Part shown: piece after piece, positions 8,069-27,835 of the stretch
How the letters are laid out: every line of letters begins with the position of its first letter
How positions within the stretch are numbered: position 1 is the stretch's first letter
Virus record (IMG/VR): IMGVR_UViG_3300043410_000509
Location: 1 to 37,827 of that record
From: a virus
Reading direction: 5' to 3' (one strand)
Length of the DNA: 37,827 nucleotides
Translations under genes and position numbers: made by a program
Notes under the pieces: model-generated
Database searches by the model: none
The model's input: only the letters and a program-made list of their open reading frames with translations
What the model was told of the DNA's origin: nothing

Positions 8069-10018
8069 ATGGCTGACAATCCGTTCGCTCAGTACGCACC
8101 ACAACCTGCGGCTGCGGCAAATCCGTTTGCCCAATATGCACAACCTGCTGCCATCAACGAGATTCCCACCACTCGCCGTTCTTACGCTTTGAAAGAAGTG
8201 CCCGGCGCAATGTTGGAGAACGCTCCAGCAAGCGCAGGTCAATTTGTTGGCGGTATCGTGCAGGCCGTTACCAGCCCCGTGCAAACCTTAACGGGTCTTC
8301 TTGATCTGGGTGCTGGTGCGCTTCGCAATTCATTGCCTAAGAGCGTGTCCAATTTCATCGACAAATTCGATGCTGACCCAACAAACGCCGAACGTGCAAG
8401 CGCGGTGGCGACTGCTGTGGGTGGCGCGTACAAAGACAAATACGGCAGCTACGACGCTATCAAGCGCACGTTTGCCGAAGACCCTGTGGGAGCCGTAGGC
8501 GATTTATCGACATTGTTGACTGGGGGCGGCGCGGCTGCTACAAAAGTCGGTGCTGTAAAAACTGGCGCTGCTTTGACCCGTGCTGGTGAAATGACCAACG
8601 TCGCACGTCCTGTCGCACCTCTTGTCGAAGTACCCGTCAAACTTGCAGGCAAGGCCGCTGGTGCGATTTACAACGCATTTGACCCCAAATCTGTCGCATA
8701 TTTGACAGCCGCCGAGGGTCGTGGTCCCGAGATCGTCAATGCTCTGCGTGGTCAGACCGAGATTGTGCCGGGCAGCATGCCCACCGCTGCGCAAGCCGCT
8801 GCGCCCGTGGGAGCCACCCGATTTTCGTCAATGGGCGCATCTGCGGCCAAGACTACGCCCACACCATATTTTGAGCGTGCTCAAGAGCAAAAGGCTGCGC
8901 AATTGGCTGCAGTGCAGCAAGTCGGCAAGAGTCCCGCCGAACTCAAAGCCGCAGAGGCTGCACGCAGCAGCACTGCCAAAGAGTTGTACGGTATTGCCGA
9001 TGAAGCACTGGTTCCCGCTGACACAAAGTTTACGGGCCTGCTTGGTCGCCCATCAATGGATAAAGTGATTGCCCGCGCCAGCGAGTTGGCTGCGGAAAAA
9101 GACATTCCGTTCCAGATTGGTCAGAACCGCCCAGCGCAATCCATACCATCCGCAATTTTGGATGCCGAAGGTAAGCCTATGGGTGTCACCAATATCCCCG
9201 GTGAAGTGGCCAAGTACCCCGGCAGCAGTTTGCATATGATGAAGATCGCATTCGATGATCTGATCAAAAATCCAGAGCGATTTGGCATCGGCGCATCCGA
9301 GGCTCAAGCCATAGGGAAAACCCGTGGTGAGTTTCTCAAGTGGGCCGAAGACAAGGCCCCCGCCTACAAAACAGCGCGTGAGACATTTGCTGCCCAAAGC
9401 AAGCCGATCAATCAGATGCAAGTGGGTCAGTACCTCGAAGGTAAGCTGAAGCCCGCGCTTGAGACAACTGGTGGTGAAACACCCGCTGCACTGAAAGCTG
9501 CGACGTTTGCCAATGCGATGGAGCAAGCACCTCAGACCATCAAGCGATCAACAGGCATGACTCGATTTGATGAACTGAGTCAAGTGCTTGATCCTGACCA
9601 AGTCAAGGTGCTCGAGAGTGTGCGTGCCGATCTGGCCCGTGCCAAGATGACCGAAGCGCAGGCCGCTGCCGCTCGTGGTGCTGGTCCTGATGTGAACCTG
9701 ATGGGTACAGAGACTCTGGGCAATGTGCGTGCACCCAACTTCATCAACAACGTGACCACGGTTGCCAACGACATCCTGCGTCGCCTACAAGGCAAACTGG
9801 ATCAGAAGTTGGCTATCGAGTTGGCTGCTGAAATGCTGGACCCTGCTGCCGCTGCTGCCGCGCTGGAAAAGGCAATGGCACGCGAAGCTCGTGGTCAAAA
9901 ACTTTCTGACCCATTCAAGAAGACAGGCAAAGCTGCGTCGAATATCATTCGTACTCCCGCAGCAATCAACATGCTTGCTCCAACATCGGAAGTACAAAAC
10001 GCATTTGTAGGCCAGTAA
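8069..10018 (+). CDS. Ejection protein 3, P22 gp16-like position
   Basis: The protein is 649 aa (P22 gp16 is 609). The N-terminus carries a tandem NPFAQYA repeat (residues about 4-10 and 18-24), a short-repeat style seen on internal virion proteins of podoviruses. Next come two Gly/Ala/Val-rich amphipathic segments (about 45-90 and 140-175) that could insert into membrane, then a long helical body rich in Ala, Lys and Glu. In P22, gp16 is needed to move DNA across the inner membrane. No lytic transglycosylase motif was seen. The stop TAA shares its last A with the next start codon. Confidence 0.65.
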   Translation: MADNPFAQYAPQPAAAANPFAQYAQPAAINEIPTTRRSYALKEVPGAMLENAPASAGQFVGGIVQAVTSPVQTLTGLLDLGAGALRNSLPKSVSNFIDKFDADPTNAERASAVATAVGGAYKDKYGSYDAIKRTFAEDPVGAVGDLSTLLTGGGAAATKVGAVKTGAALTRAGEMTNVARPVAPLVEVPVKLAGKAAGAIYNAFDPKSVAYLTAAEGRGPEIVNALRGQTEIVPGSMPTAAQAAAPVGATRFSSMGASAAKTTPTPYFERAQEQKAAQLAAVQQVGKSPAELKAAEAARSSTAKELYGIADEALVPADTKFTGLLGRPSMDKVIARASELAAEKDIPFQIGQNRPAQSIPSAILDAEGKPMGVTNIPGEVAKYPGSSLHMMKIAFDDLIKNPERFGIGASEAQAIGKTRGEFLKWAEDKAPAYKTARETFAAQSKPINQMQVGQYLEGKLKPALETTGGETPAALKAATFANAMEQAPQTIKRSTGMTRFDELSQVLDPDQVKVLESVRADLARAKMTEAQAAAARGAGPDVNLMGTETLGNVRAPNFINNVTTVANDILRRLQGKLDQKLAIELAAEMLDPAAAAAALEKAMAREARGQKLSDPFKKTGKAASNIIRTPAAINMLAPTSEVQNAFVGQ

Positions 10019-17231: not shown

Positions 17232-17248
17232 TACATTTACTCCTTACT
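17229..17248 (-). promoter_or_regulatory. Repeated translation-initiation leader box, copy 2
   Basis: Minus-strand AGTAAGGAGTAAATGTAATG, ending in the SSB start codon, is identical over 20 bases to the leader of the 65-aa gene at 26119-26138, about 9 kb away. It carries the AAGGAG ribosome-binding site with nine-base spacing. Confidence 0.75.
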
Positions 17249-17477
17249 TGGTCCAAGTTACTGCTTTGACTGCCCACATTTGTGCAGTCTGAGTTTCAGT
17301 GATAGCGATGCTTAACATGCGCTGTTCCTCACGATCGGTTGTGCTTTCGCGTAACTCGTTCAGACGGGTCACAATTTTCGCGTACTCGGTTTTCAGTTCA
17401 TTCACAAGTGGCAAGCCACCGGGATTGAACGACACACCACAAGCACGTTCACCAAAAGTCATTTCGCGTGTTTCCAT
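17244..17477 (-). CDS. Acb2/DUF7681-like protein, putative cyclic-nucleotide sponge
   Basis: The protein is 77 aa. After a short N-terminal strand (GERACGVSFNPGG) it folds as a helical hairpin: helix 1 about 24-42 (VNELKTEYAKIVTRLNEL) and helix 2 about 48-75 with the conserved-looking RMLSIAITETQTAQMWAVKAVTW. I recognise this as the Acb2/Tad1 hairpin type found widely in phages. Characterised Acb2 proteins form hexamers that sequester cyclic di- and trinucleotides and so block CBASS, and Tad1-type members bind gcADPR of Thoeris. The assignment is from remembered pattern, not a search. The gene lies in the early replication operon, between the exonuclease and SSB genes, a sensible place for an early counter-defence. 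Confidence 0.55.
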   Translation of the reverse strand: METREMTFGERACGVSFNPGGLPLVNELKTEYAKIVTRLNELRESTTDREEQRMLSIAITETQTAQMWAVKAVTWTK

Positions 17478-18793: not shown

Positions 18794-19216
18794 TTAGGCT
18801 TTCAATGCTTCAATGCCACTGAACAACTGACCGTAGTGCTCGGGCTTCACGTCATTGATGTTGGCGTAACCGAGTTGTGTCAACACGCCTTGGATCATTG
18901 CGCCCTTTTGTGGGCCAAGTGCCTTGTAAGAAGCCATGACGTAGTCGATCAGACCCTTCGGATCGCTGAACGGAGCACCAGAGGCGGCTGCTGGCGCTGC
19001 TGCTTGGGGTTGAAAAGAAGGCGCGGCGGGCATCACGGGAGCGGTCACGGGTGCAGGGGCTGGCGCTGCTACGGGAGCGGCAACTGGTGCAGGTGCTGCA
19101 ACAGGAGCGGGCGCTTGTGCCACTGGTGCGGCAGGTGCTACATTGCTGGACTCAAGTTTGGCAGTAAGTGCAACGACAGCGGCGGTCAGTGCTTCAATTT
19201 TCGATTCGAGTGACAT
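18794..19216 (-). CDS. Ala/Pro-linker protein with C-terminal helical domain (140 aa)
   Basis: Three parts are seen: an N-terminal amphipathic helix with Leu/Ala heptads (SKIEALTAAVVALTAKLES), a low-complexity Ala-Pro-Val linker spanning about residues 25-80, and a compact C-terminal domain (about 83-140) with conserved-looking LIDYVMASYKALGPQKGAMIQ and INDVKPEHYGQLFSGIEAL. The helix may oligomerise. I recognise this organisation from phage genes next to DUF2815 SSBs, but no function is established. A role as a replication or recombination scaffold is speculation. Its start lies within the end of the RHH gene (overlap of 23 bases). Confidence 0.7.
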   Translation of the reverse strand: MSLESKIEALTAAVVALTAKLESSNVAPAAPVAQAPAPVAAPAPVAAPVAAPAPAPVTAPVMPAAPSFQPQAAAPAAASGAPFSDPKGLIDYVMASYKALGPQKGAMIQGVLTQLGYANINDVKPEHYGQLFSGIEALKA

Positions 19217-19397
19217 ATAACGATTCCTTTGGAGTTACGGGAGGTTGAATTACAAGACGGTCGGTATTGAACGCTTGCACTATTTCCCGAAGGACATCAG
19301 ACGGTTGCCCGTACTTTTCTGCCTTTCGGTGAAATGCTTTGTGATCGTGAGGCGTGAGCCTGACGTTCAGAAATTTGGTAAGAGGTTTGGTAGCCAT
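19194..19397 (-). CDS. Ribbon-helix-helix DNA-binding regulator
   Basis: ATG 19397 is chosen; the longer frame to 19427 runs into the promoter. The 67-aa product has the Arc/CopG-like pattern: strand LTKFLNVRLTP (about 6-16), helix 1 DHKAFHRKAEKYG, turn QPSD, helix 2 VLREIVQAFNT. RHH proteins bind as dimers with paired strands in the major groove, typically at inverted repeats near their own promoter. Exactly such a repeat (GTTGC-N10-GCAAC) overlaps both divergent promoters upstream. It is the first gene of the leftward replication operon, so autoregulation is likely. Confidence 0.8.
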   Translation of the reverse strand: MATKPLTKFLNVRLTPHDHKAFHRKAEKYGQPSDVLREIVQAFNTDRLVIQPPVTPKESLYVTRIEN

Positions 19398-19419
19398 GAT
19401 CAAATAAATTTTTGCTGCG

Positions 19420-19449
19420 TTGAACAAAGTGTAGCACAGTTGCTATACA
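19420..19449 (+). promoter_or_regulatory. Rightward promoter for the primase-helicase unit
   Basis: TTGAAC (19420-19425), an 18-base spacer and TATACA (19444-19449) precede the 112-aa gene at 19491. It faces and overlaps the leftward promoter, so both cannot easily be occupied at once. Confidence 0.5.
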
Positions 19450-19457
19450 ATGTGCAA
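19428..19457 (-). promoter_or_regulatory. Leftward early promoter for the replication operon
   Basis: On the minus strand, TTGCAC (plus 19452-19457) and TACACT (plus 19428-19433) are separated by 18 bases, a fair sigma70 match, about 30 bases before the RHH start codon. The promoter overlaps the rightward promoter and the inverted repeat. Confidence 0.55.
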
Positions 19458-19458
19458 C
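19439..19458. promoter_or_regulatory. Candidate operator, inverted repeat GTTGC-N10-GCAAC
   Basis: The five-base inverted arms (19439-19443 and 19454-19458) cover the -10 region of the rightward promoter and the -35 region of the leftward promoter. A dimeric regulator bound here would block both. The adjacent RHH protein is the obvious candidate. Confidence 0.5.
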
Positions 19459-19490
19459 AGATTTGAAAAATATTTTTGAAGGAGTTAAAA

Positions 19491-19834: not shown

Positions 19835-19863
19835 AAAAGCCCCGTGGGTTAGACGGGGCTTTT
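19835..19863 (+). terminator. Bidirectional-type rho-independent terminator
   Basis: AAAAGCCCCGT pairs with ACGGGGCTTTT around the loop GGGTTAG, giving an 11-bp stem with A- and T-runs on either side. It separates the 112-aa gene from the primase-helicase, so the latter would be expressed at lower level unless read-through or antitermination occurs. The stem-loop contains CCCCGTGGGTTAG, identical over 13 bases to 26221-26233. Confidence 0.85.
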
Positions 19864-23798: not shown

Positions 23799-24059
23799 TC
23801 AATCGGTTTTTGTTTTCGATGGTCGCCCGCGCTTGCCCGCAACTTTGGGTTCACTGGGCGCGGGCAAAAAAGAATTGTGAAGCGCGGGGTTCATAGCTTC
23901 GACCATGCCCAGCACCTCGAGCAGTCGGGCAACGGCGGCGGTCGGTTTGCGGTCACCCGCTGCCCATTTGCGAAAAGTAAATACGGGCACGCCCAGATAT
24001 GCGGCGGCTTGGGATTCGTCAAGATTTAGGCGGCTTTGTAGCGATTTAAATGGATTCAT
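23799..24059 (-). CDS. HTH (XRE/YdaS-like) regulator with AT-hook-like tail
   Basis: The protein is 86 aa. Residues about 5-52 form a helix-turn-helix domain: LNLDESQAAAYLGVPVFTFRKWAAGDRKPTAAVARLLEVLG, the layout of Cro/CI or YdaS-like regulators, with recognition helix VFTFRKWAAG. The C-terminus has KRGRPSKTK, an AT-hook-like GRP core that could hold the DNA minor groove. The gene follows a terminator by about 20 bases and lacks a clear ribosome-binding site, so expression is probably low. It is the best candidate regulator for the ACCCACGGGGT sites in the control region, but nothing in the sequence proves it. Confidence 0.72.
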   Translation of the reverse strand: MNPFKSLQSRLNLDESQAAAYLGVPVFTFRKWAAGDRKPTAAVARLLEVLGMVEAMNPALHNSFLPAPSEPKVAGKRGRPSKTKTD

Positions 24060-26154: not shown

Positions 26155-26182
26155 ATTATATACCCCGTGGGTCATTTGTCAA
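26155..26182 (-). promoter_or_regulatory. Consensus sigma70 promoter for the leftward accessory operon
   Basis: On the minus strand TTGACA (plus 26177-26182) and TATAAT (plus 26155-26160) are separated by 16 bases, a perfect match at both hexamers. It lies 34 bases before the 65-aa gene. An ACCCACGGGGT site fills the spacer and a second abuts the -35 box, so a bound protein would exclude RNA polymerase. Confidence 0.88.
26162..26172 (-). promoter_or_regulatory. ACCCACGGGGT operator site, spacer copy
   Basis: This 11-bp motif on the minus strand lies between the -35 and -10 boxes of the consensus promoter. It is one of six exact copies in about 860 bp. Confidence 0.75.
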
Positions 26183-26192
26183 CCCCGTGGGT
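26182..26192 (-). promoter_or_regulatory. ACCCACGGGGT operator site, upstream copy
   Basis: This second exact copy is 20 bp from the spacer copy and shares its last base with the first T of the -35 box. The two-turn spacing puts both sites on the same face of the helix, which suits cooperative binding. Confidence 0.75.
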
Positions 26193-26203
26193 GCATTTAT
26201 TTT

Positions 26204-26734
26204 CTAGGTGCTTTCCCTAACCCCGTGGGTTAGTTTATACATAAGTACCGCCGCGTCCCGTTCTTCACTACTCGCAAAATAACCCAAGTGTTTTGTCTTT
26301 GCGCCCTCACGCACCACGGCGCGGAATGGTTTCCTATCGGCGCGGGGTGCACGCGCCACAGTTTCACCCGTTCGCAAATAGTGAAGCACAATCGACGCGC
26401 TAACAATTCGCCCGCGCCAAAACACCCGCGACCCAACGGGTATAAATTCATCTCGAATGGTTGTCGAACCATCGGCGGCAAAAGTTCGCCATGTTTCGCG
26501 GCGCATCAAGCGCCCGTCGCGCTCTACCAATTCAAACCCCAACCGCTCGGGCTTTCTAATCTGCGGTTTCTTTTCCCGTGGTTTACGATCGACTGGTTGA
26601 GCGTAAACCACGGGTTCGGGGATGCCCAACAATTCCCGCAACTTTGAATCGGGCAATGCGTCGAGTGTGTCAAAGTCATACGCGCTCAACTCGGGCAACT
26701 CAAAAGCGCGGTTTACAAGTTCTTCATGTGTCAT
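26204..26734 (-). CDS. AP2-like DNA-binding protein, possibly a degenerate HNH endonuclease
   Basis: The protein is 176 aa. Residues about 140-170 (FRAVVREGAKTKHLGYFASSEERDAAVLMYKL) look like the AP2/ERF-type DNA-binding domain that ends many phage HNH homing endonucleases. Upstream, VGSRVFWRGRIVSASIVLHYLRTGE resembles the strand-helix segment preceding HNH cores, but no HNH catalytic His-Asn-His is present. It could be a decayed homing nuclease kept as a DNA-binding regulator. The N-terminal third is acidic, and a basic middle (RKPREKKPQIRKPERL) is encoded by a 13-bp inverted repeat. It stands alone between two groups of ACCCACGGGGT sites. Confidence 0.6.
   Translation of the reverse strand: MTHEELVNRAFELPELSAYDFDTLDALPDSKLRELLGIPEPVVYAQPVDRKPREKKPQIRKPERLGFELVERDGRLMRRETWRTFAADGSTTIRDEFIPVGSRVFWRGRIVSASIVLHYLRTGETVARAPRADRKPFRAVVREGAKTKHLGYFASSEERDAAVLMYKLTHGVREST
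26220..26230 (-). promoter_or_regulatory. ACCCACGGGGT site inside the 3' end of the AP2-like gene
   Basis: This exact copy in the same orientation as the promoter pair codes for Thr-His-Gly-Val near the C-terminus of the 176-aa protein. It may be a third operator or a coincidental coding copy. Confidence 0.5.
26575..26614. repeat. 13-bp perfect inverted repeat within a coding region
   Basis: CCCGTGGTTTACG (26575-26587) and CGTAAACCACGGG (26602-26614) flank a 14-base loop. A stem this long inside a gene should be strong in mRNA. Both arms contain CCACGGG, partly resembling the ACCCACGGGGT motif. Confidence 0.75.
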
Positions 26735-26937: not shown

Positions 26938-26948
26938 ACCCACGGGGT
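26938..26948 (+). promoter_or_regulatory. ACCCACGGGGT site, right group
   Basis: Exact 11-bp copy on the plus strand, opposite in orientation to the promoter-associated sites on the left of the AP2-like gene. No promoter hexamers are evident around it. Confidence 0.6.
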
Positions 26949-26989
26949 AAACGTATCACGCCGCATCGATTGAACCAATAGACGCAATG

Positions 26990-27020
26990 ACCCACGGGGT
27001 CACCAGTAAACCCACGGGGT
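26990..27020 (+). promoter_or_regulatory. Pair of ACCCACGGGGT sites with 20-bp spacing
   Basis: Exact copies at 26990-27000 and 27010-27020 reproduce the spacing and orientation of the pair at the consensus promoter, here pointing rightward towards terminase. Where the left pair encloses TTGACA and TATAAT, this pair has TCACCA and no -10, so it is either a promoterless operator pair or uses another factor. Confidence 0.7.
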
Positions 27021-27191
27021 CGGGCGTCTGCGTGCCGTGGTGCTCGGCGCTCGGCGTCCCGCGCCGCCGGATTCGCCCGCGATTCTGGATTCCGGATTCA
27101 GGACACATGGGGTGGGTGGGGTCCCGCGACCCTCCGGTCCCGGCGACGGCGGTATCGCGAACAATTTTTTATTTTTTCAAATTAACCCTAG

Positions 27192-27202
27192 ACCCACTGG
27201 GT
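27192..27202 (+). promoter_or_regulatory. Variant ACCCACTGGGT site near the terminase leader
   Basis: This is a one-mismatch copy of the 11-bp motif followed directly by TCACA, as the promoter copy is followed by TGACA. It lies 64 bases before the small terminase start and may mark the late promoter region, although no good -10 box is seen at the right distance. Confidence 0.4.
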
Positions 27203-27265
27203 TCACATAACTCCCATGATTCCTTTTCACCACGCAACACAAACCTGTGGTAGATTCACAGCACT

Positions 27266-27835
27266 ATGGAAACAAGGCAAACCTCATCCGTAGGCGCAGT
27301 TGTCACACCCGGCCAAGTTGACGAACTCGACAACCTCGAATTGCCCCAGTGGCTTTCTGTGCCTGATCCCAAGCCGCTCACCCCGAGCAAGGTGATGCGT
27401 GAACTCGTCCATGCTCAATACGAAAACATCTTCGAGCGTGTCATCGAACAGATTTACCGTGGCCGCTCCCTTGCATCGCTGCTCGATGATGACCATCGGG
27501 AGATCAGCTACGAGGGGTTTTTGCGCTGGGTCAAGCGTGACCCGATGCGCCATGAACGGTTCAAAGAAGCACAGGAGAACCGCTCCGAGTTCATCGCTGG
27601 CGAGATTCTCCAGATTGCCGATGCCGAGGACTCCATAGAAGATGTGCAACGTTCAAGATTAAAGATCGACACTCGCAAGTGGCTGATGTCCGCTTGGAAC
27701 AGAAAACGCTACGGCGAGACCAAGACGCTTGAGATGGCTGGCTCGATCTCGATTACGAATGCGCTGGCTGCGGCCCGTGAGCGCATGATCGAAGCAGAGG
27801 TGGTTGACGTGACACCGAAAGAGCTGGACAACTGA
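27266..27835 (+). CDS. Terminase small subunit (Sf6-like type)
   Basis: The protein is 189 aa and helical. The C-terminal segment RLKIDTRKWLMSAWNRKRYGETKTLEMAG is the usual end of small terminases of the Sf6/terminase-5 kind. The middle YEGFLRWVKRDPMRHERFKEAQENRSEFIAGEILQIAD is characteristic of the same class, where residues around 70-100 include a helix-turn-helix-like DNA-recognition part. It recognises the packaging site and hands DNA to the large subunit encoded next, whose start overlaps its stop. The ribosome-binding site is weak. It is the first late gene after the control region. Confidence 0.85.
   Translation: METRQTSSVGAVVTPGQVDELDNLELPQWLSVPDPKPLTPSKVMRELVHAQYENIFERVIEQIYRGRSLASLLDDDHREISYEGFLRWVKRDPMRHERFKEAQENRSEFIAGEILQIADAEDSIEDVQRSRLKIDTRKWLMSAWNRKRYGETKTLEMAGSISITNALAAARERMIEAEVVDVTPKELDN

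Follow-up and report, generated by a model that had tools for sequence, protein, structure and literature searches.

What do the repeated 11-bp elements between the two gene arms of this phage genome control, and which protein reads them? The sequence analyzed (hereafter, the window) is an IMG/VR phage record of 37,827 bp, whose encoded proteins include a primase/helicase, a P22-like portal, and the terminase small subunit TerS, which is Sf6-like. From position 27266, TerS opens a rightward arm of packaging and structural genes; the genes to the left are mostly leftward, and positions 26938 to 27202 lie within the non-coding junction that separates the two arms. The nearest annotated record is phage DSL-LC05, itself metagenomic (TerL, 84%), which has been assigned to the proposed family "Luchaoviridae" (PMC10611076). 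The literature searched yielded neither a paper describing this operator array nor a description of regulation in the relatives of DSL-LC05. A host search returned a single TerL piece in a gammaproteobacterial MAG contig, which is insufficient for naming the host, and Rhodoferax phage P26218 was rejected as a cultured relative, the motif being absent. For comparison, 80 TerL relatives were collected from IMG/VR, followed by operator- and HTH-based sets and two more TerL sets. Motif statistics were calculated over 104 non-redundant related junctions, from which near-identical junctions had been removed beforehand.

The motif, ACCCACGGGGT, is present as six exact 11-mers in 37.8 kb, all between 26162 and 27020. 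When up to two mismatches are allowed, 20 matches are found, in comparison to 9.5 ± 2.8 in shuffled sequences (0/100 shuffles reach 20). A match at 19839 was rejected as a further operator, as it belongs to an intrinsic terminator hairpin. The following sites were assigned at the junction:

26162 to 26172, minus strand: early operator (ACCCACGGGGT, exact copy) within the -35/-10 spacer of the leftward early promoter
26182 to 26192, minus strand: early operator (exact copy) abutting or overlapping the -35 element; relative L012 also has one
26220 to 26230, minus strand: upstream early operator (exact copy), 58 bp from the spacer site
26938 to 26948, plus strand: central operator 1 (exact copy), in a central cluster that is conserved with variable spacing
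26990 to 27000, plus strand: central operator 2 (exact copy)
27010 to 27020, plus strand: central operator 3 (exact copy)
27103 to 27113, plus strand: degenerate site ACACATGGGGT (two mismatches), which may be chance
27192 to 27202, plus strand: late operator ACCCACTGGGT, centered 69 bp upstream of the TerS ATG and 54 bp upstream of the -10 element; in relatives, these distances step by one helical turn

The three exact copies and the variant at 27192 that make up the right group were recovered as reported in the initial annotation, and the left group consists of three exact copies on the opposite strand. The remark of the initial annotation that the right pair lacks promoter hexamers also stands, as no promoter was found among 26938 to 27202. 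Two geometric readings of the initial annotation were not borne out. The consensus across the 104 junctions is symmetric, ACCCA-n-TGGGT with a free central base, of which ACCCACGGGGT is a variant and the copy at 27192 a perfect palindrome. Pointing left or right thus carries almost no information, and the cores are mixed in relatives, so the supposed inversion of the right group, and motif orientation as a signal in general, were rejected. The 20-bp spacing to which it drew attention is no better preserved: 304 inter-site spacings in relatives span 15 to 71 bp, and only 9 equal 20 bp.

Absence of the motif from relatives with the same gene order had been named beforehand as evidence against a functional role. 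Instead, sequence comparison shows that the operator array is conserved across dozens of uncultivated lake-type phages. Sites are enriched approximately 200-fold at the junction (627 in 128 kb, versus 23 in 954 kb elsewhere), and relatives with enough upstream DNA typically have 5 to 12 strict ACCCN3GGGT sites each. The layout is stereotyped: one site in the early promoter, then a central cluster whose spacing varies, then one site upstream of the late promoter. A packaging site was among the suggestions of the initial annotation, and the position of the array directly 5' of terS would also suit a pac/cos region bound by TerS. However, L065 and L037 encode TerS proteins of the same family (60 to 64% identical to that of the window) in the same gene order and lack the motif, and the operators are built into promoters, making a packaging site very improbable.

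The distribution of the array across relatives also points to the protein that may bind it. Two genes of the window are relevant here:

23799 to 24059, minus strand: 86-aa XRE/MqsA-like HTH protein of the leftward early region, proposed as the array binder from its distribution, profile, and structure
26204 to 26734, minus strand: 176-aa AP2-like gene between the early and central operators (C-terminal AP2-like call made by eye; weak PHROG matches to HNH endonucleases)

Of the genes in the window, only that of the 86-aa HTH protein follows the array in its distribution, occurring alongside nearly all arrays and lacking in relatives without any array. Among non-redundant loci with at least 4.3 kb of upstream sequence available, 67 combine the HTH gene with a strict array, in 8 the gene is accompanied by few or no strict sites, and 4 lack gene and array alike (Fisher P = 3e-4, which overstates independence, since there are only four array-less relatives, of which two are distant, and many of the rows come from close kin). 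Seven of the eight site-poor loci contain 4 to 10 relaxed or half-site copies, and L237 contains one. In L077, L034, and L239, the full palindrome is replaced by mostly asymmetric half-sites (ACCCATTG, ACCCAGTGG), and the recognition helices of L077 and L237 are altered. In many relatives, GTAACCC/GTAACC units are repeated just 5' of the start codon in the leaders of the first leftward genes.

Two other candidates were rejected as the binder. The RHH protein at 19194 to 19427 is also encoded by the close but array-less relatives L065 and L037, and the AP2-like protein occurs in a minority of loci only, including the array-less L037. The AP2-like gene, shared by this phage and a minority of its relatives, is accordingly not a required part of the junction; it puts the early and central groups 0.5 kb further apart, with neither lost.

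Residues V24, T28, W32, G35, and R37, located in and around the recognition helix, are invariant in the HTH family. A profile search ranked MqsA first (3fmy; E value, 0.0014), which is the closest solved structure at weak similarity. The PF15731 match covers positions 76 to 120, and only the C-terminal HTH of MqsA is matched by the 86-aa protein. The AlphaFold model has a pLDDT above 90 over residues 1 to 60 and five helices, and its top Foldseek matches are the XRE antitoxins and regulators HigA2, CylR2, and MqsA (best E value, 0.09). As modeled, the fold is of the XRE type, five helices with a recognition helix. In the phage record collection, homologues are restricted to DSL-LC05 and a weak match in an Akkermansia phage, which adjoins a gene annotated as a toxin.

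The operator of MqsA, 5'-ACCT(N)3AGGT (PMC4901048; PMC4894380), is a palindrome with the same 11-bp geometry and shares ACC/GGT with the motif described here. It differs in its half-site, ACCT rather than the ACCC of ACCC-N3-GGGT, and the HTH protein has Lys31 and Phe27 at the positions of Arg101 and Asn97 of MqsA, respectively (HMM alignment). Moreover, the 86-aa protein is without the N-terminal zinc domain, and no toxin partner is evident. The likeness between the operators, spotted only after the motif was known, would support the HTH protein as the binder without amounting to proof. Together with the distribution of its gene, this makes the 86-aa protein the probable binder of the array.

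The placement of the sites relative to the promoters is informative as well. On the leftward side, the promoter lies within the left group of sites:

26155 to 26182, minus strand: leftward early promoter with -35 TTGACA (26182 to 26177), a 16-bp spacer, and -10 TATAAT (26160 to 26155); 12/12 match to σ70, two sites embedded

In 59/62 junctions, a site overlaps the best minus-strand promoter; under the rotation null, 7.8 junctions show such an overlap on average and 18 at most. In relatives, this early promoter is near consensus and has one site in the -35/-10 spacer. The center of the early site is exactly 6 bp upstream of the -10 element in 48 of 61 relatives, and 58 to 60 bp separate the spacer site from the upstream early operator in 37 of these 61. 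The combined pattern TTGACA-n5-ACCCAnTGGGT-TAnAAT recurs in relatives, and an exact DNA search with it returned 35 viral contigs. As the early site lies inside the promoter, bound protein should block the polymerase, which suggests repression.

The rightward side is organized differently:

27160 to 27181, no strand assigned: A/T tract (aacaattttttattttttcaaa), at a near-constant distance of ~23 nt from the late operator in relatives
27248 to 27256, plus strand: late promoter with extended -10 TGGTAGATT and a poor -35; 9 nt separate the end of the -10 from the TerS ATG
27266 to 27835, plus strand: terminase small subunit TerS (Sf6-like; PF20901, 1e-19), the first rightward late gene

Across 83 loci, the -10 element is followed by a gap of 9 or 10 nt to the ATG, a position partly set by the search, which took the best match in the short stretch before the ATG. 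The -10 is TG extended in 57 of these loci, and the best -35 mostly matches at 3/6 positions. The ACT of ACTATG was used in the start-codon search and is not independent evidence. Shine-Dalgarno-like words occur upstream of TerS in only 13/83 loci and are absent from the window. With the -10 element so close to the ATG and Shine-Dalgarno words this rare, the late mRNA looks nearly leaderless.

The late site keeps to discrete distances from this promoter. Its center is 31 to 36 bp from the -10 element in 24 loci, 42 to 46 bp in 38, 52 to 54 bp in 20, and 63 bp in one, equivalent to positions of roughly -45, -55, -65, and -75 relative to the start site. At the helical period, the late site-to-ATG distances give an R of 0.86, a value reached in 0/5,000 uniform draws, versus an R of about 0.12 for the spacings between neighboring sites; the late site and its next neighbor are weakly phased (R of about 0.4), which may reflect kinship. 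Among 32 disjoint pairs whose terS starts are >80% identical, the late-site distance differs by 0 to 1 bp in 11, by 8 to 12 bp in 19, by 20 bp in one, and by 28 bp in one, and never by 2 to 7 or 13 to 19 bp. Because near-identical junctions had been removed beforehand, the share of one-turn pairs is not a rate. The window and L012 form one close pair, differing by 10 bp. On the TerS tree, the distance classes are no less scattered than shuffled labels, and on the TerL tree they require at least 34 changes; tree error and recombination inflate these counts, of which the disjoint pairs are independent. On this comparative evidence, the one-turn steps do not derive from a single ancestral event. 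The A/T tract stays ~23 nt upstream of the late site at any promoter distance, suggesting that site and tract move as one unit.

Placement of the late site on one face of the helix implies contact with RNA polymerase. The poor -35 and a site that leaves the core promoter free make activation more likely than repression at the late promoter, as judged from sequence; contact-mediated repression would leave the same helical phasing. The array could therefore be purely repressive, with the HTH protein acting on both early and late promoters in a lysogeny- or timing-type arrangement and reaching the late one through face-dependent polymerase contact. The phasing is equally compatible with such a scheme, and the DSL-LC05 homologue of the HTH protein is annotated as "repressor protein C." Nevertheless, in no case does the late site overlap the core of the late promoter, in contrast to the early site, which nearly always overlaps the early one; the poor -35 of the late promoter suits activation; and the genes scanned yielded neither an integrase nor another lysogeny gene. 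We regard a purely repressive array as unlikely.

The central sites, which form the largest group, could have a further role, and here two alternatives arise. A replication origin, in which an initiator binds the sites as iterons and the A/T tract is the place of unwinding, would account for a cluster of sites in a non-coding region beside a conserved A/T tract, either alone or on top of a regulatory function. Iterons are usually direct repeats with even spacing. The motif here, on the other hand, is palindromic and variably spaced, and an origin leaves the two promoter-locked sites unexplained, which renders it improbable in our estimation. Clustered palindromes are likewise expected of a centromere-like partition array, another suggestion of the initial annotation. 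This reading can practically be dismissed, given that the genes scanned yielded no ParA/ParB-like protein, the candidate binder has just 86 aa, and sites are locked to promoters.

In the operator regions of lambda CI/Cro, HTH operators overlap one promoter and flank another, and the activator sits upstream of the -35 element. The junction analyzed here shares this layout with lambda but differs in that no lysogeny genes were found and that the late site may lie one, two, or three turns further out. A closer parallel is protein p4 of the Bacillus phage phi29, a repressor of A2b/A2c and an activator of the late promoter A3, whose -35 is poor (PMC3100819). In both cases, a single early phage protein has multiple inverted-repeat sites lying between the early and the late promoters, the sites overlap early promoter elements (here, in 59/62 junctions and at the spacer site of the window), A-tracts occur at or near the sites, and the late promoter has a poor -35 and depends on the protein (as proposed here for the window), combined here with an upstream site on a fixed helical face. 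However, p4 is an unrelated protein that recognizes CTTTTT-N15-AAAATG at four sites and works with p6, whereas the window system has an XRE/MqsA-like HTH protein and typically 5 to 12 sites of ACCCANTGGGT. Profile and structure searches for homology of the HTH protein to p4 gave XRE proteins and no p4.

Taken together, the junction array and the HTH protein probably form a dual switch that turns the early promoter off and the late promoter on, resembling phi29 p4 in its action. From the sequence features described above, we infer that the HTH protein binds the array, that it represses the early promoter, in which direction it acts on the late one, and what the central sites do. The HTH protein, made from the leftward early region, would bind the palindromic operators ACCCA-n-TGGGT and, as it accumulates, fill the site in the early promoter, shutting this promoter off and with it its own synthesis by negative autoregulation. 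At the terminase-proximal site, it would touch RNA polymerase from one helix face and activate the weak rightward late promoter, whose mRNA is predicted to start almost at the TerS ATG, turning on the packaging and structural genes. The central sites may increase occupancy locally or contribute to a larger complex, possibly with looping between the groups. The idea of a shared switch for leftward early and rightward late genes, already put forward in the initial annotation, is thus strongly supported by comparative anatomy, with a site in the early promoter and a phased late site both found in dozens of relatives.

Other relatives have different arrays in this region. L065, without the HTH gene and ACCCANTGGGT, has AACATC-N11-GATGTT at the same junction (8816 to 9160), and L008 has TGTTTA-N2-TAAACA at the equivalent place, 1.5 kb upstream of 8607. 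These two arrays would fit a swapping of regulator-operator pairs. In L074, a palindrome array TGAC-N6-GTCA is located 1.2 kb upstream of terS. A tentative and rather doubtful extension of the dual switch would have the junction folded up by the one-domain, antitoxin-like HTH protein and its 5 to 12 sites; the resulting nucleoprotein complex would silence the early promoter and launch a near-leaderless late mRNA. This would be a phi29-like convergence in phages with P22-type portals whose regulator-operator pairs are swapped as a whole between relatives.

Elsewhere in the window, a HicB/RHH-like 77-aa gene lies beside a divergent intergenic stretch with a TGTAGCA-N4-TGCTATACA inverted repeat (19194 to 19476). 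The gene, which is conserved in array-less relatives too, and its repeat are perhaps a second autoregulated circuit. Another 77-aa protein (17244 to 17477, minus strand) has an Acb2/Tad1 hairpin domain (PF24729; E value, 5e-11) and is likely a counter-defense protein of the nucleotide-sponge type.

The proposed switch is of a known kind, that of phi29 p4, and new in being built from an unrelated protein and site, with more sites. A DNA search with its operator-promoter pattern alone suffices to retrieve such phages. Shifts of the late site by one turn among close relatives amount to a natural helical-phasing experiment, the classic spacing test of activator-polymerase contact, run many times by evolution. 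For the relatives of DSL-LC05, a widespread uncultivated phage family, the analysis predicts which protein acts as the master regulator and provides the operator it would recognize and the two promoters it would target.
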